Shown here: positions 4,878 through 24,968 of the stretch, in pieces
Layout: each line of letters starts with the position of its first letter
Numbering within the stretch: the stretch's first letter is position 1
Source: Ramlibacter sp.
Lineage (GTDB): Bacteria; Pseudomonadota; Gammaproteobacteria; Burkholderiales; Burkholderiaceae_C
Assembly (NCBI GenBank): GCA_021323335.1
Contig: JAJTCN010000053.1
Coordinates: 1 to 64,000, forward strand
DNA length: 64,000 nucleotides
Reading direction: 5' to 3'
Notes under the pieces: generated by a model
The model's database searches: none
The model's input: only the letters and a program-made list of their open reading frames with translations
Told to the model about the DNA's origin: nothing
Translations under genes and position numbers: made by a program

Positions 4878-7800
4878 ATGGACGCCCTCGATTCGCCGGT
4901 CCGCCGGCCGGACTACCGCCTCGAACACAGCCTCTGGGCCACCGGAGGCCAGATCTTCCTGACCGGCACGCAGTCACTGGTGCGGCTGCTGGTGATGCAG
5001 CGCCAGCGCGATGCCGCCGCCGGCCTGGACACGCGCGGCTTCATCAGCGGCTACCGCGGCTCGCCGCTGGGCATGGTGGACCAGGCGGTGTGGAAAGCCG
5101 GCAGGAAGCTGGAGGAGAGCGGCGTGCGCTTCCTGCCGGCCATCAACGAGGAACTGGGCGCGACCGCGGTGCTGGGCACGCAGCGCGTGGAGGCCGACCC
5201 CGAGCGCACCTGCGGGGGCGTGTTCGCCATGTGGTACGGCAAGGGGCCGGGCGTGGACCGCGCCGGCGATGCGCTCAAGCACGGCAACGCCTACGGCTCG
5301 TCACCGCATGGCGGTGTGTTGATGGTGGCCGGAGACGACCACGGCTGCGTCTCGTCGTCCATGCCGCACCAGAGCGACCAGGTCTTCCAGTCGATGCACG
5401 CCCCCATCGTCTCCCCGGCCAGCGTGGCGGAGTACCTGGAGTTCGGGCTCTACGGCTGGGCGCTCTCGCGCTTCTCCGGCAACTGGGTCGGCTTCACCGC
5501 GCTGTCGGAGGTGGTGGAGAGCGCGTCGACGGTGGACCTCGACCTGGTGAACGCGCGGGTCGCCGCCTGGCAGGACGCCGACACGGTGCGGCAGGCCACC
5601 GGCTATGCGGCGCCTTCGGGCGGGCTGCACTACCGCTGGCCCGACCTGCCCTCGCTCACCATCGAGCAGCGCCTGCACGCCAAGCTGGACGCGGTGCGCG
5701 CGTTCGCCCGCGTGAACAGCATCGACCGCCACGTGGTGCAAAGCGAGCGCGCCACCGTCGGCATCGTCACGGCCGGCAAGGCGCACTACGACTTCATGGA
5801 AGTGCTGCGCCGGCTGGAGGTCACGCCGGAGACGCTGGCGCAGCATGGCGTGCGCATCTACAAGCTCGGGCTGACCTATCCCGTCGAGCCGACGCGCATG
5901 CAGGAGTTCGTGCAGGGCCTGCGCGAAGTCCTGGTGATCGAAGAGAAAGGGCCGGTGGTCGAGGACCAGCTGCGCTCGATGTTCTACAACCTGCCCGTGC
6001 GGCCCGCGATCGTCGGCAAGCGCGATGCGCAGGGGCGGCCGCTGATCTCCGAGCTGGGTGAACTGCGGCCCTCTCGCCTGATCGAGATCGTCGCCATCTG
6101 GCTCGCGGCCCACTTCCCCGACCTGGACCGGCGCCATCTCGTGCGCGACTTCACGCCGCCGGAGTTGCTGGCCAACGCCTCCGACAGCGTCAAGCGCGTG
6201 CCCTACTTCTGCGCCGGCTGTCCGCACAACACCAGCACCAAGGTGCCCGAGGGCTCGCACGCGCAGGCCGGCATCGGCTGCCACTTCATGGCCAGCTGGA
6301 TGGACCGCGACACCGAAGGGCTGATCCAGATGGGCGGCGAAGGCGTGGACTGGGTGTCGCACGCGATGTTCACGAAGATCCCGCATATCTTCCAGAACCT
6401 CGGCGACGGCACCTACTACCACTCGGGCTATCTCGCGATCCGCCAGGCCGTGGCGGCCCGCGCCACCCTCACCTACAAGATCCTCTTCAACGACGCGGTC
6501 GCCATGACGGGCGGCCAGCCGGTGGACGGCATCATCAGCGTGGACGGCATCGCAAGGCAGGTCGAAGCCGAAGGCGTGAAGAAGATGGTGGTGCTCTCGG
6601 ACGACATCGGCAAGTACGACGCCATCCACGACCGCTTCCCCGCCGGCACCGAGTTCCACGACCGCGCCGAACTCGACGCGGTGCAGCGCCGCCTGCGCGA
6701 CATGCCGGGCGTCACGGTGCTGATCTACGAACAGACCTGTGCCGCCGAAAAGCGCCGCCGCCGCAAGAAAGGCGAGCTGGTCGACCCGGACCGCCGCCTG
6801 TTCATCAACGACCGCGTCTGCGAAGGCTGCGGCGACTGCACGGTGCAGAGCAACTGCGTGGCGGTGCAGCCGTTGGAGACGGCGCTGGGGCGCAAGCGCA
6901 AGATCGACCAGAGCAGCTGCAACACGGACTACTCCTGCGCCAAGGGCTTCTGCCCCAGCTTCGTCGGCGTCACCGGCGGCAAGGTGCGCAAGCAGGCCGG
7001 CGCGCTGGCGGGCGGCTCGGGCGACTTCCTTTCGCGCGTGCACGCACTGCCGCTGCCGGCGGCGCATCGCTGGACGGGTCCGTACGACCTGCTCGTCACC
7101 GGCGTCGGCGGCACCGGCGTCGTCACCGTCGGCGCATTGATCACGATGGCGGCGCACCTGGAGGGCAAGAGCGCCAGCGTGCTGGACTTCATGGGCTTCG
7201 CGCAGAAGGGCGGCTCGGTGCTGAGCTACGTGCGCCTGGCCGACGTGCCGTCGCGCCTGAACCAGGTGCGCATCGACACCCAGCAGGCCGACGCCCTGCT
7301 GGCCTGCGACCTGGTGGTCGGCGCTTCCGCCGATGCACTGGTGACGGTGCGGCACGGCCGCACGCGCATCCTGGCCAACACGCACGAAGTGCCGGTGGCC
7401 GAGAGCCTGCGCAACCCGGATGCGAGCCTGAAGGTGCCGGAACTGCTGGCGAAGTTGCGCTTTGCCGCGGGCGCCGACCGCGTCGAGACGCTGGATGCGC
7501 AATCGCTCGCCGAGACCTTCCTCGGCGACACCATCTTCTCCAACATCGTCGCGCTCGGCTTCGCCTGGCAGCGCGGGCTGGTGCCGGTGGGACTGCAGGC
7601 GCTGCTGCGCGCGATCGAGCTCAATGGGGTGGGCGTCGACAACAACAAGATGGCGCTGTCGCTGGGCCGGCTGGCGGCGGCCGACGCCAAGGGCGTCACC
7701 TCGCTGCTGAGCGAGCCTGCCGCGCAAGTTCCCGCGCTGGAGAGCCTGGACGCGATCGTCGCGCGCGGCGTCGCGCACCTCACCGGCTACCAGGACGCCG

Positions 7801-15698: not shown

Positions 15699-15779
15699 GT
15701 AGGCCGGAGGTGAGCCCGAAGGCGAACCCCGGTGACGCGCCACGGGCCCACCGGGGTTCCTCGCGTCACCCCGGCCTAC
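15699..15779. repeat. 81-bp palindromic intergenic repeat, copy 2
   Basis: Same architecture as copy 1 (GTAGGCCGGAGGTGAGCCCG ... CACCCCGGCCTAC) with compensating changes: CTGG in copy 1 is CCGG in both arms here, so pairing is kept. Its last CTAC supplies the TAG stop codon of pgi on the opposite strand. Confidence 0.85.
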
Positions 15780-17314
15780 GGGGAGGCCAGGAGACGGATC
15801 AACGCCGCCGTCGAGGCGTCCACCCCCTCCACATCCCCCGTCCCCAACCGCTTCGCGATCTCCCCCGCGAGCACCTTCCCCAGCTCCACCCCCCATTGGT
15901 CGAAGCTGTCGATGCCCCACACCGCGCCGCTGGTGAACACGCGATGCTCGTACAGCGCCAGCAAGGCGCCGAGCGAAGCGGGTCGCAGTTCATCCAGCAC
16001 GAAGAAGGTGCTCGGCCGGTTGCCCGGGAAGTTCCGGTGGCCCCCCGCATCCGCCTTGCCCTGCATCAGCGCCTGCGACTGCGCGATGGCGTTGGCGAGC
16101 AGCAGTGCGTGATGGCCATCGAGCGCATGGGCCGGCTGCCGCACGGCAATGAATTCCACCGGCACGCGGTCCGTTCCCTGGTGCAGCATCTGGAAATAGG
16201 CGTGCTGCCCATTGGTGCCAGGCTCGCCCCAGAGCACGGGTGAAGTGCCGAAGGCCAGGGGCTGCCCCTGCGCGTCCACGCCCTTGCCGTTGCTTTCCAT
16301 CTCCAGCTGCTGCAGGTAGGCCGGCAGCCGGCGCAGCGCGCTGTGGTACGGCGCGATGCTGCGGCTGCCGAAGCCGTGGAAGTTGCGGTACCAGACGTCC
16401 AGCAGACCCAGCCGCACCGGCAGGTTGCGTTCCAGGGGCTCGGCGCGGAAATGCTCGTCCATCGCATGCGCGCCGGCCAGCAGTTCGCGAAAGCCTTGCG
16501 CACCGATGGCGATGGCGATCGGCAGGCCGATCGCCGACCACAGCGAATAGCGGCCGCCCACCCAGTCCCAGAAACCGAAGGTGGTGGTGATGCCGAACTG
16601 GCGCGCGGCCTCCACGTTGGTCGTCAGCGCCGCGAAATGGCGCGCCACGTCCGTTCCGCCCTGCGCCTCGAACCATGCGCGAGCGGAGCGCGCATTGGTC
16701 ATCGTCTCCAGCGTCGTGAACGTCTTCGAGGCGATGAGGAACAGCGTGCCGGCGGGACGCACGCGCTGGAGCACCGCCGCCAGCTCGTGGCCGTCGATGT
16801 TGGAGACGAAGTGCAGGCGCTTGCCGGCCGCCGCAAAACCCTCCAGCGCGGCCACCGCCATCTGCGGGCCGAGGTCCGACCCGCCGATGCCGATGTTCAC
16901 CACGTCCGTGATCGCCGCGTCGCCACGCACCTGCTCCGCATAGCGCAGCATCGCGTCGAGCGTCTCGTGCACCGCCACCGAATCGGGGTCGGCGGCAACG
17001 CGCGGCGCGCGCAGCAGCCAGTGCTTGACCGCGCGGTCCTCGGTATTGTTGATGCGCTCGCCGGCGAACATCGCGTCGCGATGTGCCTCCAACCCGGTCT
17101 CGCGTGCCAGGGCGAACAGCAGCTGTTCGGTGCCGGCGTCGACGAGGTTCTTGGAGAGGTCCGCGAAAACGTGCGGCGCCTGCTGGCTGAACCGAGCGAC
17201 GCGGCCGGCGTCGCTCGCCATCGCCTCACGCAAATCGAAGGCGCGGCCGGATTGGCCAAACCGCTGTTGCAGCTGCCCCCAGGCAGCCGTCCGGTCGCAG
17301 CGCGTGCGCGTCAT
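15776..17314 (-). CDS. pgi: Glucose-6-phosphate isomerase
   Basis: A 512-residue cytosolic enzyme interconverting glucose 6-phosphate and fructose 6-phosphate. Family signatures are intact: FAGERINNTEDRAV, GIGGSDLGPQM, VGGRYSLWSAIGLPIA and the C-terminal GIDSFDQWGVELGK. ATG 17314 lies 4 nt after the tal stop, so tal-pgi are cotranscribed. The protein ends LLASP and its TAG stop is formed by an intergenic repeat, so the natural C-terminus may have been altered by a residue or more. Confidence 0.97.
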   Translation of the reverse strand: MTRTRCDRTAAWGQLQQRFGQSGRAFDLREAMASDAGRVARFSQQAPHVFADLSKNLVDAGTEQLLFALARETGLEAHRDAMFAGERINNTEDRAVKHWLLRAPRVAADPDSVAVHETLDAMLRYAEQVRGDAAITDVVNIGIGGSDLGPQMAVAALEGFAAAGKRLHFVSNIDGHELAAVLQRVRPAGTLFLIASKTFTTLETMTNARSARAWFEAQGGTDVARHFAALTTNVEAARQFGITTTFGFWDWVGGRYSLWSAIGLPIAIAIGAQGFRELLAGAHAMDEHFRAEPLERNLPVRLGLLDVWYRNFHGFGSRSIAPYHSALRRLPAYLQQLEMESNGKGVDAQGQPLAFGTSPVLWGEPGTNGQHAYFQMLHQGTDRVPVEFIAVRQPAHALDGHHALLLANAIAQSQALMQGKADAGGHRNFPGNRPSTFFVLDELRPASLGALLALYEHRVFTSGAVWGIDSFDQWGVELGKVLAGEIAKRLGTGDVEGVDASTAALIRLLASP

Positions 17315-17318
17315 CGGT

Positions 17319-18266
17319 TCACACCGCCTGCATCAGTTGCTCCAGCTTGACCGCATCGGCCCCGAAGGCGCGGATGCCTTCGGCCAGCTTCTCGGTCGCC
17401 ATCGCGTCCTCGTTGAGCGCCCAGCGGAAGGAAGCCTCGTCGTATTGCACGGCGCGGATGTCGGCGCCTTTCGCCTGCTGCGGATCCAGCGCGCGCTGCA
17501 GCGGCGCATCGGACGAGGCCAGTTGCGCCAGCAGCTCGGGGCTGATGGTCAGCAGGTCGCACCCTGCCAGGGCGAGGATCTGGCCGGTGTTGCGGAAGCT
17601 CGCGCCCATCACCTCGGTGGCGATGCCGAAGTGCTTGTAGTACTCGTAGATCTGCCGCACCGACTGCACGCCCGGGTCGTTGGGGCCGGCCTTGGCGGCT
17701 TCGTCCCAGCCCGCGCCCGCGCTCTTCTTGTACCAGTCGTAAATGCGGCCCACGAAGGGCGAGATCAGCTGCACCTTCGCCTGCCCGCACGCCACCGCCT
17801 GGCAGAACGAGAACAGCAGCGTCAGGTTGGTGTTGATGCCGCGCTGCTGCAGCTTCTTCGCCGCCTGGATGCCTTCCCACGTGCTGGCCACCTTGATCAG
17901 CACGCGGTCGATCGGCACGCCCTCGGCCTGGTACAGCTCGATGAGGCGCTCGCCGCGGCTGTAGGTGGCCATGGTGTCGAAGCTCAGGCGCGCATCCACC
18001 TCGGTGGAGACGCGGCCGGGGATGAGGCCCAGGATCTCGGTGCCGAAGCGCACCAGCAGCCGGTCCATCACCTCGTCGGTGTCCCGGCCGCGGAAGCGCG
18101 TGACCGTTTCCTTGAGCAACGGCGCGTACTCGGGCTTCTGCACGGCCTTGAGGATCAGCGACGGGTTGGTGGTGGCGTCCTGCGGCTGGTATTGCGCCAG
18201 CTGCTTGAAGTCGCCGGTGTCGGCCACGACGGTGGTGAACTGCTTGAGGGCTTCCAGTTGGTTCAT
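17319..18266 (-). CDS. tal: Transaldolase
   Basis: A 315-residue pentose-phosphate enzyme transferring a dihydroxyacetone unit between sedoheptulose 7-phosphate and glyceraldehyde 3-phosphate. Signatures: [21 protein letters not shown] and the Schiff-base lysine Lys125 in [11 protein letters not shown]. The length matches the TalB class. It starts 29 nt after the ABC ATPase stop and is followed 4 nt later by pgi, so an ABC-tal-pgi operon is likely. Confidence 0.97.
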
Positions 18267-18295: not shown

Positions 18296-19342
18296 TCAGG
18301 CGACCTGGACCACGGACACGCCATGGCCGCCGAGCTGCAGGCCGACGTCGCTGCCAAGGCTGAGCACCGCGCCGACCTCCGGGGAGACGACGAAGATCGA
18401 CCCGAGTTCCGTCTCGAAGGTGTATTCGTAGTTGCTGCCCAGGTAGGCCAGCTTGGCCAGCCGCCCGTTCAGGCCATGCCCCGGCGGGCCCACGTGCCAG
18501 GCTTCGGGGCGCACCGCGACTTTCACCGCGCCTGGCTGTACCGGCTGGCGCGGTTCGATGCGCAGCGGCCCCAGCAGAACCATGCCCGCTTCGTCCGCCA
18601 TGGCGGGAAACAGCATGGCCTCGCCCATGAACCCGGCGACGAATTCGGTGGCGGGGGACTCGTACAGTTCCTGCGGCGAGCCGGCCTGGGCGATGACGCC
18701 GTGGTCCATGACGATGATGCGGTCGCTGACCGCCAGTGCCTCGCTCTGGTCGTGCGTGACGTAGGCCACGGTGAGCTGCAGGCGCTGCTGCAGCGCGCGG
18801 ATCTCCTCGCGCATCTCGCGCCGCAGCCGCGCGTCCAGGTTGGACAGCGGCTCGTCGAACAGCAGCACTGCCGGCTCCAGCACCAGGGCGCGCGCCAGCG
18901 CCACCCGCTGCTGCTGGCCGCCGGAGAGCTCGCTGGGCAGGCGCCGTTCGAAGTCCACCAACCCGACGTTGCGCAACGCATCGGCCGCGCGCCGGCGGGC
19001 GGCCTCCTTCGGCTCGCCGGACATGCGCAGGCCGTAGCTCACGTTCTCCAGCACGTCCATGTGCGGAAACAGCGCGTAGCTCTGGAACATCATGCTGACG
19101 TTGCGGTCCGACGGGCCCAGCGTGGTGACGTCGCGGCCGTCGATCAGGATCTGACCGCTGGTTGGCGCCTCCAGCCCCGCGATCATGCGCAGCGTCGTCG
19201 TCTTGCCGCAGCCGGAAGGACCGAGGATGGTGACCAGCGTGCCGCGCTCCACCGCGAAGCTGATGCCCTGGACGGCCAGCGGCGCCGCCGGGTCGGCGCC
19301 GTAGCGCTTGGTGACGTTGCGGAATTCGATGCCAGTGCTCAT
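18296..19342 (-). CDS. ABC importer ATP-binding protein (FbpC/AfuC-like)
   Basis: A 348-residue ATPase with Walker A GPSGCGKT (about residue 40), Q-loop, signature [15 protein letters not shown], Walker [13 protein letters not shown] and the switch His in [10 protein letters not shown], then a C-terminal TOBE/OB regulatory domain (about 250-348). It is immediately adjacent to the permease stop. Homology alone points to the ferric iron/2-aminoethylphosphonate/hexose-phosphate group; the sugar-phosphate context argues for the last. Confidence 0.9.
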
Positions 19343-21487
19343 TCACGCTCCGATGGTGATGGGTGTCGCGGCGCGGCGGCCCAGGCGGCGCTCGCCCACC
19401 AGCAGCTGGATCAGCGCGGTGGCGGCGCTCATGAGGAGGATCAGCACGGTGCAGTAGGCCAGGGCCACGCCGTAGTCGCCGTTGCCGACGCGCCCGATGA
19501 TGTAGGTGGTGGCCAGCTCGTTCTCCGCGGTCACCAGGAAGATGACCGCGGACACCGTGGTGATGGACCGCACGAAGCTGTAGACCAGCGCCGCCACCAG
19601 CGCCGGCTTCAGCAGCGGCAACGTGACGTGGCGCAGCGTCTGCACCGTGGAAGCACGCAGCATCAGCGACGCTTCATCGAGCGACTTGTCCAGCTGCTGG
19701 AAGGCGGCGGAGCCGGCGCGCACGCCCACCGGCAGGTTGCGGAACAGGAAGCACAGCACGATGATCAGGCCGGTGCCCGTCAGCTCGAAGGGCGGCACGT
19801 TGAAGGCCAGGATGTAGCTGACCCCCAGCACCGTGCCGGGGATGGCGAAGGCAAGCAGCGCCGAGAACTCGAACAGGTTCTGGCCGCGGAACTGCGTGCG
19901 CGCGAGCAGCCACGCGATCAGCAGCCCCATCGCCGCGGTGAGCGGCGCCGAGATGGCGGCGAGCTTGACGGTGGTGAAGAAGGAGTTCCAGGCGGTGCCG
20001 GACCACACGATGCCGAAGGCGCCCCACTCCAGCGAGAACGCGGTGGCGAAGTGGGCCAGCGTGGGCGTGTAGTCGCGGCCCCAGGTCTGCACGAAGCCGC
20101 CCACCAGCGCGAACAGGTAGACCACCAGCGTGAACGCCACCCACGGCAGGGCGATGGCGTTGACCAGCCGCCGCACGTTCTTCGGCAGCGGCATCGGCAC
20201 GCCGGAATCGCCCTTGCCGCTGACGGTGGTGTAGCCGCGCCGGCCCAGCACCCAGCGCTGCAAGGCGAACACCGCCAGCGCGAACAGCGTGAGCAGCCAG
20301 GCCAGCGACGCCGCGCGGCCCTGGTCGTACTGGGCGCCGACGATGGCGAAGAAGATCTCGGTGGAGAGCACGGAGAACTGGCCGCCGACGACGATCGGGT
20401 TGCCGAAGTCCGCCATGCTCTCGATGAAGCCGACCAGGAAGGCGTTGGCCAGCCCCGGGCGCAGCAGGGGCAGCGTGACGGTGGTGAAGGTGCGCTGCGC
20501 ATTCGCGCGCAGCGTCTGCGCCGCTTCCTCCAGGCTGGGCGCGATGCCCTGCACCACGCCCCAGACGCCGAAGCCGCCGTAGAACCAGCGGGTGGGCGTG
20601 ACGCCGAAGACGCTTTCGAGCAACTGGTTGACGATGCCCGCGCGTCCGAACAGCAGGATCAGCCCCAGCCCCACCACGAAGGGCGGCGTGATGATGGGCA
20701 GCATCGCCAGGATGTTCAGCGCGCGCGCGCCGCGGCGGCTGCCACGCTCGGCCATCAATGCCATCAGGGTGCCCAGCAGCGTGGTGCTGGCCGCGGTGGC
20801 GATGCCCAGGACGATGGTGTTCCATGCCACGCCGCAGCGCACGCCAGCGGACAGGCAGCCGACGCCGAAGTTGCGCTCGTTGAAGATGCGCCCGGCGAAG
20901 GAGGCCAGCGCGCCGCTCCCGTCTTCGCCGATGAAGGCGCCGCCGAGCGTCTTGGCCACCGGATACACGATGAACAGGGCCAGCAGGCCGCCGCAGGACA
21001 CCACCGCCGCGGCCACGAACAGGTCGCCGCGAAAGAGGCCGCGTCGCGCCAGGCCGAAGGCGCCGAGCACGACCAGGGCCGCCAGCGCCAGCGCGCCGCC
21101 CCAGCCGATGCCGAACTGCTGCTGCGAGAGATCGCCGAACAGCCTGCCCAGGATGTCGAAGCTCCAGCCCTTGGCGCCGATCGCGAAGCCGCTGGCGAGC
21201 AGCGCCAGCGCGCCGCCCAGGCCGCCGGCCAGCAACACCGTGCCCTGCCGGCGCCCCGGCGCCATGCCGGCCGCCACGGCGCACACCAGGAGGCCGGCGA
21301 GCCCGCACAGCAGCCACGGCTTGCCGAAGCGCGTGGCCTGCAGCAGGCCGTTGCCGGTCTCCGCTGCGCTCCAGGTGCGCGCGATCGCCAGCAGGCCGTT
21401 GGCGTCCTGCAGCGCGTACCAGGGGAAGAGAAGCCAGGCCGCGATGCCCACCGCGACCCACGCCCGCAGGGCGGCGTTCGGGCTCAC
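19343..21487 (-). CDS. ABC importer permease, two fused membrane domains (FbpB/AfuB-like)
   Basis: A 714-residue inner-membrane permease with two BPD_transp_1 modules, each with an EAA-type loop ([20 protein letters not shown] about residue 325; [20 protein letters not shown] near 625). About a dozen hydrophobic segments, with extra N-terminal helices (residues 5-200) before the first module. The start is GTG and overlaps the binding-protein stop (GTGA). It is the membrane part of the transporter whose ATPase and binding protein flank it. Confidence 0.9.
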
Positions 21488-22497
21488 CGTGGCAGGGAGT
21501 TCACTTCCTTCTCCCAGCGGGCGATGAGGCGGCGGCGTTCAGCGCTGGCGCCGTACTTGGCGTAGTCGTAGTTGATCAACTTGATCTTCTTGAAGTCCGG
21601 CACCCGCGGGTCGACCTTCGCCGCCTTGTTGCTGGGAAGCTGGAACTGCTTGGCCGCGGCCGCCATCTCCTGCGCCGCCGGCGTCAGCGCCCATTCATAG
21701 AACTTCTTCGCGGCCTCCAGGTTGCGCGAGCCCTTGATGATGCTCATGGAGCCGATCTCCGCGCCGGTGCCGTCGGCGGGCGTGATGGTCTCCACCGGGA
21801 AGCCCTGCATCTTCTCGCCCGGGCCGTCGTGCACGAAGCTGATGGACACCGCGGTCTCGCCCCGGGCCACTGCCTTGATGGGCGCGGTGCCCGAGCGCGG
21901 ATAGGCGCCGACGTTGCGGTGCAGCCCCTTCAGGTAGTCGAAGGCTTTGTCCTCTCCCATCAGCTGCACCAGCGTGGCGATCATCGTGTACGAGGTGCCG
22001 CTGGACGCCGGGTTCGCCACCTGCACCTCGCCCTTGTAGTCCGCCTTGGTCAGGTCGGCCCAGGTCCTGGGCACCGCCAGCTTCTTCTTGGCCAGCAGCT
22101 CGGGGTTGTAGCCGAACCCGAGCGGGCCCGAGTAGATGCCCACCGTCTTGTAGCCGGACTGCCTGGCCTGCTGCTGCGCCCAGTCGTGCAGTTGCGGCAT
22201 GGATGGCGATTTGTATTCGATGGTCAGGCCCTGCTCAGCGGCCTGCAGGTGCGGATCGCCCGTGCCGCCGAACCAGATGTCGGTCTTGGGGTTCTCCTTC
22301 TCCGCGATCAACTGCGCGAGAGCCTCCCCCGAGCCCTTCATCACCACGTTCACCTTGGTGCCAGTCGTGCGTGCGTACACGGTCGAAATCATGTTGCACC
22401 ATTCCGCCTGCACCGAGCAGATGACGTTGACCTGGCCCTGGGCGGCGGCACCGCCGGCGGCGGCGGCGAGCACCACCGCGATAGACAACTTGCGCAT
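21484..22497 (-). CDS. ABC importer substrate-binding protein (AfuA/FbpA-like)
   Basis: A 337-residue periplasmic binding protein with signal peptide (residues 1-19, MRKLSIAVVLAAAAGG). It belongs to the group usually labelled 'Fe(3+) ABC transporter substrate-binding'. The paired tyrosines that bind iron in FbpA are not seen at the corresponding place; instead His223-Asp224 and Glu247 occur with the 23-residue spacing that I recall for the hexose-phosphate binder AfuA (H205, D206, E229). With pgi, tal, zwf and hexR around it, sugar phosphate is a better guess than iron. GGGAG lies 8 nt before ATG 22497. Confidence 0.88.
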   Translation of the reverse strand: MRKLSIAVVLAAAAGGAAAQGQVNVICSVQAEWCNMISTVYARTTGTKVNVVMKGSGEALAQLIAEKENPKTDIWFGGTGDPHLQAAEQGLTIEYKSPSMPQLHDWAQQQARQSGYKTVGIYSGPLGFGYNPELLAKKKLAVPRTWADLTKADYKGEVQVANPASSGTSYTMIATLVQLMGEDKAFDYLKGLHRNVGAYPRSGTAPIKAVARGETAVSISFVHDGPGEKMQGFPVETITPADGTGAEIGSMSIIKGSRNLEAAKKFYEWALTPAAQEMAAAAKQFQLPSNKAAKVDPRVPDFKKIKLINYDYAKYGASAERRRLIARWEKEVNSLPR

Positions 22498-22513
22498 CAC
22501 ATTCGCTCCCGTA

Positions 22514-22528
22514 AGTAACGAAATTACA
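22514..22528. promoter_or_regulatory. HexR operator candidate
   Basis: AGTAACGAAATTACA reads as a near-perfect GTAA-N5-TTAC palindrome, matching the known proteobacterial HexR consensus TGTAA-N5-TTACA at all but one outer base. It lies 17 nt upstream of the binding-protein start and 144 nt upstream of zwf, in the divergent region of genes next to hexR. HexR responds to 2-keto-3-deoxy-6-phosphogluconate in characterised species. Confidence 0.65.
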
Positions 22529-22671
22529 CGTTCGCAGCTTAGCCGCGCCCGGCGGGATGTTTGTTGGGGGTAAACACCAGCGCCAATGAACACGCAAGTT
22601 CGCGCGGGGCCGCCCGCTGGCGCGGCGATGAAACCAAGTTACATTGCCGGAATGCAAATCCAAGGAGAGCC

Positions 22672-24126
22672 ATGAGCTTCGACCTCGTCCTCTTCGGCGG
22701 CACCGGCGACCTCGCGTGGCGCAAGCTGATGCCCGCGCTGTTCCAGGCGTTCCGCCACGGCACCCTGCCGGAGGGCGGCCGCATCATCGGCATCGGCCGC
22801 GACGACCTGAGCGACGCCCAGTACCGTGAATTGATCCGCGCCCGCTTCGACAACGTCGAACTGGCGAAACGCCCCAAGCCGGAGGAGTTCGAGCGGTTCG
22901 CGGGGCTGCTGCACTTCCTGCGGATGGACCTGACGCAGCCGCAGGACTATGGGCGCCTGGCAACGACGCTGCGCGACCGGAACGCCCAGACGGTGGTGAT
23001 GTACCTCGCGACCGCGCCGGACCTCTTCACGCGCGTGTGCGAGCAGCTGGCCGCCGCCGGCCTGAACCTGCCGAACACGCGGCTGGTGCTGGAGAAACCG
23101 CTCGGCCACGACCTCGCGTCCAATCGCGAGATCAACGACGTGGTCCGGGGGGTGCTGGACGAGCGCCAGATCTTCCGCATCGACCACTACCTGGGCAAGC
23201 CGGCGGTGCAGAACCTGTTCGCCATGCGCTTCGGCAACGCGCTGTTCGAGCCGCTGTGGCGGCGCGAGCACATCTCCAACATCCAGATCACCATCGCCGA
23301 GGACATGGGGGTGGAAAAGCGCGGCGCCTTCTACGACAAGACGGGCGCCCTGCGCGACATGGTGCAGAACCATGCGCTGCAGCTGCTGTGCGCGCTGGCG
23401 ATGGAGCCGCCGATCAACTCGCACGCCGACGCCATCCGCGACGAGAAGCTGAAGGTGCTGCGCTCGCTGGTGAAGTGGACGCCGGAGACGCTGGACCAGC
23501 ACGTCGTGCGCGGCCAGTACGCGGCCGGCAACGTCGGCGGCCAGCTGGTCCCCGGCTACCGCGAGGAGAAGGGCGTGGACCCGGAGAGCCGCACCGAGAC
23601 CTTCGTCGCGCTGCGCGCGGAGATCGCGAGCTGGCGCTGGGCTGGCGTGCCCTTCTACATCCGCACCGGCAAGCGCCTGGCGGCCCGCGAGGCGCACATC
23701 CTGGTGAACTTCCGCGAGGCGCCCCACCCGATCTACCAGGCCCCGCGCAACTCCTGGAACCGGCTGGTGATCAACCTGCAACCCCGCGACGGCGTGCAGC
23801 TGCACCTGCTGGCCCAGGGACAGGAGAATCGGCGAAACGGCGCGATGCTGGAGCCGGTGCACCTGGACCTGGACTTCGACAAGCGTTTCGGCTCGGAGCG
23901 CGTGGGCGCCTACGAGCGGCTGCTGCTGGACGTGATCGCCGGGCGGCTGAACCTGTTCGTGCGCAGCGACGAACAGGAGGCCGCGTGGCGCTGGGTGGAG
24001 CCGATCATGGAGCACTGGGCCGCCGACACGCACGGCCCGCGGCCGTACACCGCGGGCACCTGGGGCCCGAGCGCTTCCAGCGCCATGATCGCGCGCGACG
24101 GCTTCTGCTGGTCCGAGGAATGCTAG
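22672..24126 (+). CDS. zwf: Glucose-6-phosphate 1-dehydrogenase
   Basis: A 484-residue NAD(P)-dependent enzyme making 6-phosphogluconolactone, the entry to the pentose-phosphate and Entner-Doudoroff routes. The Rossmann motif GGTGDLAWRK opens the protein; the catalytic block RIDHYLGKPAVQN is at about residues 165-177. AAGGAGAG sits 6 nt before ATG 22672. A longer reading frame from 22561 adds unrelated residues and was not used. The stop overlaps the start of hexR by 7 nt. Confidence 0.97.
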   Translation: MSFDLVLFGGTGDLAWRKLMPALFQAFRHGTLPEGGRIIGIGRDDLSDAQYRELIRARFDNVELAKRPKPEEFERFAGLLHFLRMDLTQPQDYGRLATTLRDRNAQTVVMYLATAPDLFTRVCEQLAAAGLNLPNTRLVLEKPLGHDLASNREINDVVRGVLDERQIFRIDHYLGKPAVQNLFAMRFGNALFEPLWRREHISNIQITIAEDMGVEKRGAFYDKTGALRDMVQNHALQLLCALAMEPPINSHADAIRDEKLKVLRSLVKWTPETLDQHVVRGQYAAGNVGGQLVPGYREEKGVDPESRTETFVALRAEIASWRWAGVPFYIRTGKRLAAREAHILVNFREAPHPIYQAPRNSWNRLVINLQPRDGVQLHLLAQGQENRRNGAMLEPVHLDLDFDKRFGSERVGAYERLLLDVIAGRLNLFVRSDEQEAAWRWVEPIMEHWAADTHGPRPYTAGTWGPSASSAMIARDGFCWSEEC

Positions 24127-24968
24127 ACCGCATCAAGGCCTCCATGGCCTCGCTGGCGCCCGCGGAACAGCGGGTGGCCCGGCTGGTGCTGGGGGACCCG
24201 CGCGCCTTCGCCAACCTGCCGATCAGCGAGCTGGCGGACCGGTCGCACGTGAGCAAGCCGACCGTGGTGCGCTTTTGCCGCAGCATGGGCTACGACGGCC
24301 TGTCGGACTTCAAGCTCAAGCTCGCCGGCACCGTGAGCGAGGGCGTCCCCTTCATCCACCGCAACGTCGACGCCGACGACAAGACCGGCGACGTGCTGGT
24401 GAAGGTGATCGACAATGCGGTCGCCGCTTTCCTGAAGTACCGCAACGACGCCTCGACCTTCGCGATCGACAAGGCCGTGGAAGCCCTGGCCGCGACGTAC
24501 AAGACCGGGCGCCGCATCGAGTTCTACGGCGCCGGCAACTCCGGGGTGGTGGCGCTCGACGCGCAGCACAAGTTCTTCCGCCTGGGCGTGAACACCATCG
24601 CCTACAGCGACGGCCACATGCAGGTGATGAGCGCCACGCTGCTGGGGCCGGGCGACTGCCTGGTGGTGGTTTCGAACTCGGGCCGCACGCGCGACCTGAT
24701 GGATGCCTGCGACATCGCGCGGCGCAACGGCGCGACCACCATCGTCATCACGGCGACCGCTTCCCCCCTGGCCACCGCCGGCCACATCCACCTGGCCGCC
24801 GACCACCCGGAAGGCTATGACCGCTACAGCCCGATGGTGTCGCGGCTGCTGCACCTGATGATCATCGACGTGCTGGCCACCACCGTGGCCCTGCGCATCG
24901 GCGGCGGCAAGTTGCAGCCGCTGTTGCGGGAAATGAAGAACAATTTGCGGACCAAGCGGTACGCGTGA
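24120..24968 (+). CDS. hexR: RpiR-family transcriptional regulator HexR
   Basis: A 282-residue repressor: N-terminal RpiR helix-turn-helix (ISELADRSHVSKPTVVRFCR, residues 38-57) and a C-terminal SIS sugar-phosphate binding domain (about 120-250; IEFYGAGNSGVVA, VVSNSGRTRDL). HexR proteins control central sugar metabolism and are often encoded beside zwf, as here. ATG 24120 overlaps the zwf stop. A HexR-like site lies upstream of zwf, so autoregulation through the zwf promoter is likely. Confidence 0.92.
   Translation: MLDRIKASMASLAPAEQRVARLVLGDPRAFANLPISELADRSHVSKPTVVRFCRSMGYDGLSDFKLKLAGTVSEGVPFIHRNVDADDKTGDVLVKVIDNAVAAFLKYRNDASTFAIDKAVEALAATYKTGRRIEFYGAGNSGVVALDAQHKFFRLGVNTIAYSDGHMQVMSATLLGPGDCLVVVSNSGRTRDLMDACDIARRNGATTIVITATASPLATAGHIHLAADHPEGYDRYSPMVSRLLHLMIIDVLATTVALRIGGGKLQPLLREMKNNLRTKRYA

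Follow-up and report, generated by a model that had tools for sequence, protein, structure and literature searches.

The locus considered here raises the question of what an ATP-binding cassette (ABC) importer, whose family labels point to the uptake of ferric iron, is doing among genes of sugar-phosphate metabolism. It lies within the first 64,000 nt of contig JAJTCN010000053.1 (Ramlibacter sp., assembly GCA_021323335.1; this whole stretch is called the window below), where the predicted binding protein, permease and ATPase genes afuA, afuB and afuC are followed by tal and pgi and diverge from zwf and hexR. A sequence-only reading had proposed that the importer carries hexose phosphates, in the manner of AfuABC, and is controlled by HexR. 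We conclude, at a probability of roughly 0.77, that the genes form a HexR-controlled AfuABC module for the uptake and entry of sugar phosphates. This conclusion rests on homology, on conserved residues, on the rarity of the operators and the way they covary with HexR, and on the order of the genes, and we infer the ligand, the binding of HexR, the effector, the direction of control and the physiological role.

Among solved structures, the closest relatives of the afuA product were the glucose 6-phosphate (G6P) binders AfuA and VcA0625 (the latter presumably from Vibrio cholerae), at E-values of ~1e-85 and 43–44% identity, whereas ferric-binding proteins matched at 3e-12 at best and with 15–22% identity. 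Sequence and fold searches both grouped the protein with AfuA and VcA0625, well apart from ferric-binding proteins. The sugar clamp of AfuA (H205, D206, E229) was present as H223, D224 and E247, as the sequence-only reading had noticed, and the 23-residue Asp–Glu spacing that it had likened to D206–E229 was also an alignment match. Mutation of these His, Asp and Glu residues in AfuA abolishes G6P binding (PMC4546632). The phosphate pocket (S37, G38, T60, S148–T150 and G185 of AfuA) was identical at 7 of 7 residues, and 17 of the 19 published AfuA pocket residues were retained. Of 108 copies that were aligned, 91 had the His-Asp-Glu set, as did the best copy at each of the 80 loci returned by the AfuA search. 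An AfuA-like rather than an iron importer, with a sugar phosphate as its predicted ligand, is thus supported by the searches and by the conserved determinant residues. The high-affinity ligands of AfuA are G6P, fructose 6-phosphate (F6P) and sedoheptulose 7-phosphate (S7P) (PMC4546632); these are the substrates of Zwf, Pgi and Tal, so that import would feed the oxidative pentose-phosphate and Entner–Doudoroff pathways directly.

Palindromes of the type TGTAAY-N3-RTTACA (core GTAAY-N3-RTTAC) stand before both afuA and zwf. The sequence-only reading had placed one of them 17 nt before the binding-protein gene; the palindrome is indeed at 22514–22528, but the distance is 16 nt, and its listing omitted the second operator (22629–22643) and a site at edd–eda. 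When TGTAAYNNNRTTACA was searched with at most one mismatch, 2 sites were found in the window against 0.01 expected (0 of 100 shuffles yielded two), and these were the only 2 in the whole 4.49 Mb assembly, both inside the zwf–afuA gap. The perfect core GTAAYNNNRTTAC occurred at two places in the genome, before afuA and ~10 nt upstream of the edd ATG, and the control pattern had no match; edd (TIGR01196 over cut-off) has eda (TIGR01182 over cut-off) as its downstream neighbor. Two-mismatch sites elsewhere in the genome were set aside and not taken for a regulon, as such sites numbered 26 per strand in total versus 38 for the reversed control pattern, the level of chance. The HexR of Pseudomonas is a repressor of zwf, edd and gap-1, and 2-keto-3-deoxy-6-phosphogluconate (KDPG) releases it (PMC5902321). 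Control of the importer by HexR, as proposed earlier, is a prediction supported by the genome-wide rarity of the sites, by those at zwf and edd–eda, and by their absence where HexR is absent. In several Ramlibacter genomes (L127, L128–L130 and L135), a second conserved stretch like GGTAACCGGTTCGTAACC was seen ~60–70 bp farther upstream than the operator region of edd.

The rare palindromic operators at target promoters covaried with hexR, more weakly so at edd in relatives. Of the 80 AfuA loci, 66 had zwf within 1.5 kb; a whole-genome HexR search covered 47 genomes, 43 of them zwf-linked. Genomes were scored as HexR-bearing on a match of at least 68% identity and as HexR-less on RpiR-family matches of no more than ~35% or none, and operators were called in the zwf–afuA gap at up to two mismatches. 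Among the 43 zwf-linked genomes, all 11 with HexR had operators, against 1 of the 32 without it (Fisher p = 2e-9, a value that ignores shared descent, in a set with near-duplicates such as L079 and L081, whose titles both name isolate E41). The 4 unlinked genomes (2 with HexR, 2 without) had no site. In a second set, drawn from the genus, operators were found at 11/11 HexR-bearing and 0/3 HexR-less loci; L147, one of the HexR-less loci, matches L025 of the first set exactly in its AfuA row. In the AfuA tree the HexR-less state was spread over several lineages, which indicates several separate changes, some of the rows so marked being stretches that end early. Operators were missing along with HexR from a large Variovorax clade, Caenimonas koreensis (L025/L147), L148 and L149, and L148 and L149 group with HexR-bearing loci that have sites. 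The exception among the 32, L009, has no hexR between the usual neighbors (5400–5500) and has kept the zwf-side site, which looks, from its sequence, like a recent loss of the regulator. At L059 and L062, which the AfuA tree places close to HexR-less loci, a hexR 72% identical to that of the window lies between zwf and afuA, and a regain is possible there. At HexR-less Variovorax loci such as L029, L034 and L041, a GC hairpin with a T run, resembling a terminator, was seen by eye just before afuA, in the place that the operator takes in Ramlibacter, with a conserved TGTACTAAAGCTACG farther upstream.

Import of ferric iron by a system of the FbpABC kind is what the family labels suggest, and the PDB molecule names in the transporter group carry iron-uptake labels as well. 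The YY pair of FbpA-type proteins binds iron. Iron-coordinating tyrosines were looked for and not seen in the single alignment covering the region, that with 7li0 (a Moraxella ferric-binding protein per its title), where H223–D224 stand opposite the first two Tyr of a TYYYG stretch; this agrees with the earlier claim that the paired tyrosines are lacking, and is given moderate weight because identity to 7li0 is low. Given also the low identity to iron binders, the sugar-phosphate enzymes encoded alongside and the fact that AfuA itself was once misassigned as an iron binder (PMC4546632), iron import was rejected as scarcely credible. Uptake of pyridoxal phosphate or 2-aminoethylphosphonate is hardly tenable either. 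The pyridoxal 5-phosphate binder P5PA (PDB 6wce; PMC8427247) is a close relative (9e-77) of the same family with a similar phosphate pocket, yet it is 41% identical, below the 65% threshold of its authors, it agrees at just 13 of 19 pocket residues, and Ala replaces both Asp206 and Glu229 in it, two acids that the window protein keeps; pyridoxal phosphate was rejected on the latter two grounds. In favor of phosphonate are matches to the PhnS2 (TIGR03261) and PhnU2 models, both under cut-off; it was rejected because PhnS2 matches the afuA product at 198 bits against a cut-off of 392.75. PhnU2, the best NCBIfam match of afuB, scores 227.7 bits, well under its cut-off of 593.25. It is more conceivable, if still unlikely, that the same transporter family and regulator serve another ligand, such as a different phosphorylated sugar or sugar acid of the pentose-phosphate or Entner–Doudoroff pathways. 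Relative to AfuA, T11 is replaced by Q30, I186 by T204, and the Tyr preceding Glu229 by Ala246, all three being invariant in the best copies at 80/80 loci, so that the preferred sugar may differ from that of AfuA; against this, every residue whose mutation abolished G6P binding is retained, and the neighboring enzymes use exactly G6P, F6P and S7P.

Those three substitutions count against a HexR-controlled sugar-phosphate module, as do several observations on its regulation and setting. The transporter genes were also found in genomes that lack HexR and at a distance from zwf, so control by HexR does not define the transporter; in 2 of 13 HexR-bearing genomes afuABC is unlinked and has no site, L068 lacks a site (1 of the 29 loci having hexR in the stretch), and the afuA-side core is perfect at just 13 of 21 short-gap loci. 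Sites at edd (up to two mismatches) were present in 3/7 HexR-bearing and 0/3 HexR-less genus genomes. Three of the 11 HexR-bearing zwf-linked genomes (L059, L072, L073) have gaps of 1.06–1.24 kb with another gene inside, compared with 89–231 bp in the other eight and 77–195 bp in the 32 HexR-less genomes, so that the scan covered more sequence in the former. The HexR consensus from which the operator search started agrees only loosely with the published P. putida consensus TTGT-N7/8-ACAA (PMC5902321); the hexR product scored 248.2 bits on the NCBIfam HexR model PRK11302, under the cut-off of 296. The genome is 89.7% complete, and it encodes one ROK-family kinase (matched by no NCBIfam model), so an internal route of sugar phosphorylation to G6P may exist. 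The palindromes might be real but belong to another regulator, HexR being nearby by coincidence; the occurrence of afuABC without HexR and the lack of an edd site in some HexR-bearing genomes speak for this. However, sites and HexR are missing together in the several separate lineages named above, the other perfect genomic core stands at edd–eda, and L009 keeps one site without hexR, which leaves this explanation a very slim chance. On balance, the interpretation first made of the locus is supported and largely right.

In the module proposed here, AfuABC would use ATP to import phosphorylated hexoses and heptoses, most likely G6P, F6P and S7P, captured in the periplasm by a phosphate pocket (S56, G57, T79, S166–T168, G203) and the clamp H223–D224–E247. 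G6P would be delivered to Zwf, F6P to Pgi and S7P to Tal, and from there to Edd–Eda. HexR would repress afuABC–tal–pgi, zwf–hexR and edd–eda through the palindromic operators, and KDPG formed by Edd would lift this repression, by analogy with Pseudomonas; an imported sugar phosphate would then induce its own importer in a positive feedback. Among 41 genomes of the genus, Glk (PF02685) was absent from 38, that of the window included, PTS_EIIC reached its cut-off in none (0/41), and edd was over cut-off in 38.

The coordinates of the features are collected in Table 1. Gene order and coordinates confirmed the earlier statement that the importer genes sit between pgi/tal and zwf/hexR: afuA-afuB-afuC-tal-pgi run on the minus strand, their neighbors overlapping or separated by at most 29 bp, and zwf–hexR diverge on the plus strand across an intergenic gap of 174 bp between zwf and afuA. 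No sigma-70-like promoter was found within 22480–22700. The host is a Ramlibacter-like betaproteobacterium (4,488,344 bases in 165 contigs), and both the AfuA search and the tree drew the nearest AfuA copies from genomes named Ramlibacter.

Table 1. Genes and putative operators of the afuABC locus, in window coordinates.
Feature	Position	Strand	Remarks
afuA, predicted periplasmic sugar-phosphate binding protein, 337 aa	21484..22497	-	Heads the operon; closest solved structures 4r72-4r75 (AfuA) and 8x1a; H223, D224 and E247 kept
afuB, fused two-domain permease, 714 aa	19343..21487	-	Two BPD_transp_1 stretches; 4-bp overlap between its start and the afuA stop
afuC, ATPase with TOBE domain	18296..19342	-	PRK11432 (ferric ABC ATPase) 368.1 bits, under cut-off 496
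tal, transaldolase (S7P + glyceraldehyde 3-phosphate to erythrose 4-phosphate + F6P)	17319..18266	-	TIGR00874 and TAL_FSA over cut-off
pgi, glucose-6-phosphate isomerase (F6P to G6P)	15776..17314	-	PRK00179 702.8 bits, cut-off 492
zwf, glucose-6-phosphate dehydrogenase	22672..24126	+	TIGR00871 over cut-off
hexR, RpiR-family regulator	24120..24968	+	HTH_6 and SIS over cut-off
Putative HexR-type operator of afuABC-tal-pgi, AGTAACGAAATTACA	22514..22528	.	16 nt before the afuA ATG; retained in many HexR-bearing relatives
Second putative HexR-type operator, TGAAACCAAGTTACA	22629..22643	.	28 nt before the zwf ATG; retained in relatives

The distribution of the genes was scored in the same 41 genus genomes, with AfuA called at 65% identity or above: 18 had both AfuA and HexR, 5 AfuA only, 7 HexR only and 11 neither. 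The two genes were on one contig in 17 of the 18, 1.6–2.7 kb apart. In 6 of the 7 HexR-only genomes, and likewise in G456, where afuABC is elsewhere, the order was hexR-zwf, operator(s), tal-pgi, and no gene was found between; the remaining one, L143, showed neither tal nor pgi within the stretch retrieved. Since the HexR-only genomes keep operators before zwf and tal-pgi, afuABC looks, on this comparison of gene orders, like an optional cassette heading the tal-pgi operon in a HexR-run divergon. Across the 80 loci, tal adjoins afuABC in at least 50 and pgi in at least 54, many stretches ending early. In an order-wide survey AfuA was found at 1e-60 in 11 of 399 genomes, that of the window included, which shows a patchy distribution of the family within the order.

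A second AfuA-like protein is encoded in the genome of the window (contig C22, L086 6081-7103; 48% identity) and has Phe-Gly instead of His-Asp with the Glu retained, so the His-Asp-Glu set is not common to every family member; no transporter gene adjoins it in the list of open reading frames (ORFs), inspected by eye. Proteins of this kind form a clade in the relatives L113, L114, L115 and L040. At L107–L112 and L116–L120, genomes of another Burkholderiales family have several AfuA-like binding proteins, some in tandem, and no afuB or afuC was found adjoining several of these genes. At L069:6907 and L072:6991 a tandem second AfuA (67–68% identity) with His-Glu-Glu lies between zwf and the main afuA, and at L073:6862-7920 an extra ORF, resembling by eye a PhnD-type binding protein, lies between the zwf-side operator and afuA.

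The AfuABC family and its betaproteobacterial members are already known, 121 alpha- and betaproteobacterial AfuA homologues with the motif having been counted by Sit et al. 2015 (PMC4546632). The window genes share with AfuABC of Actinobacillus pleuropneumoniae and Citrobacter rodentium, described there, the full His-Asp-Glu clamp, the phosphate pocket and adjacent permease and ATPase genes, the binding protein being 44–45% identical to that of Actinobacillus; they differ in their betaproteobacterial host, in Q30, T204 and A246, and in heading an operon that continues into tal and pgi and diverges from zwf-hexR, with HexR-type operators ahead. VcA0625 (PDB 8x1a), a further solved relative, is titled a periplasmic G6P binding protein. 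UhpT likewise imports G6P and F6P, but as an antiporter under UhpABC and not as an ABC system (PMC4546632). An RpiR-family HexR beside zwf, with zwf and edd as targets, is common to the Pseudomonas HexR regulons (PMC5902321), to which the window adds, as predicted targets, a sugar-phosphate ABC importer with tal and pgi, and operators of the type TGTAAY-N3-RTTACA. HexR-controlled afuABC, its links to tal, pgi and zwf, and its cassette behavior were not found in the literature searched on HexR regulons and on AfuA/sugar-phosphate uptake (titles and starts of abstracts); Leyn et al. 2011 was outside that search, so RegPrecise may already list the operon.

If the proposed module is real, a transporter group labelled as iron uptake would have to be reinterpreted, in many genomes of the Burkholderiales, as taking up sugar phosphates, and G6P-like compounds may be a real nutrient outside animal hosts. 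The chances seem even that many Comamonadaceae and Sphaerotilaceae scavenge environmental phosphorylated sugars as a regular carbon route, the afuABC cassette between the HexR operator and tal-pgi acting as a self-inducing unit that bypasses Glk-type glucokinase and uptake by the phosphotransferase system, both lacking in most of the 41 genus genomes. Close relatives differ in whether they carry afuABC, and in whether they carry hexR together with its operators, and would provide a natural system in which to test this.
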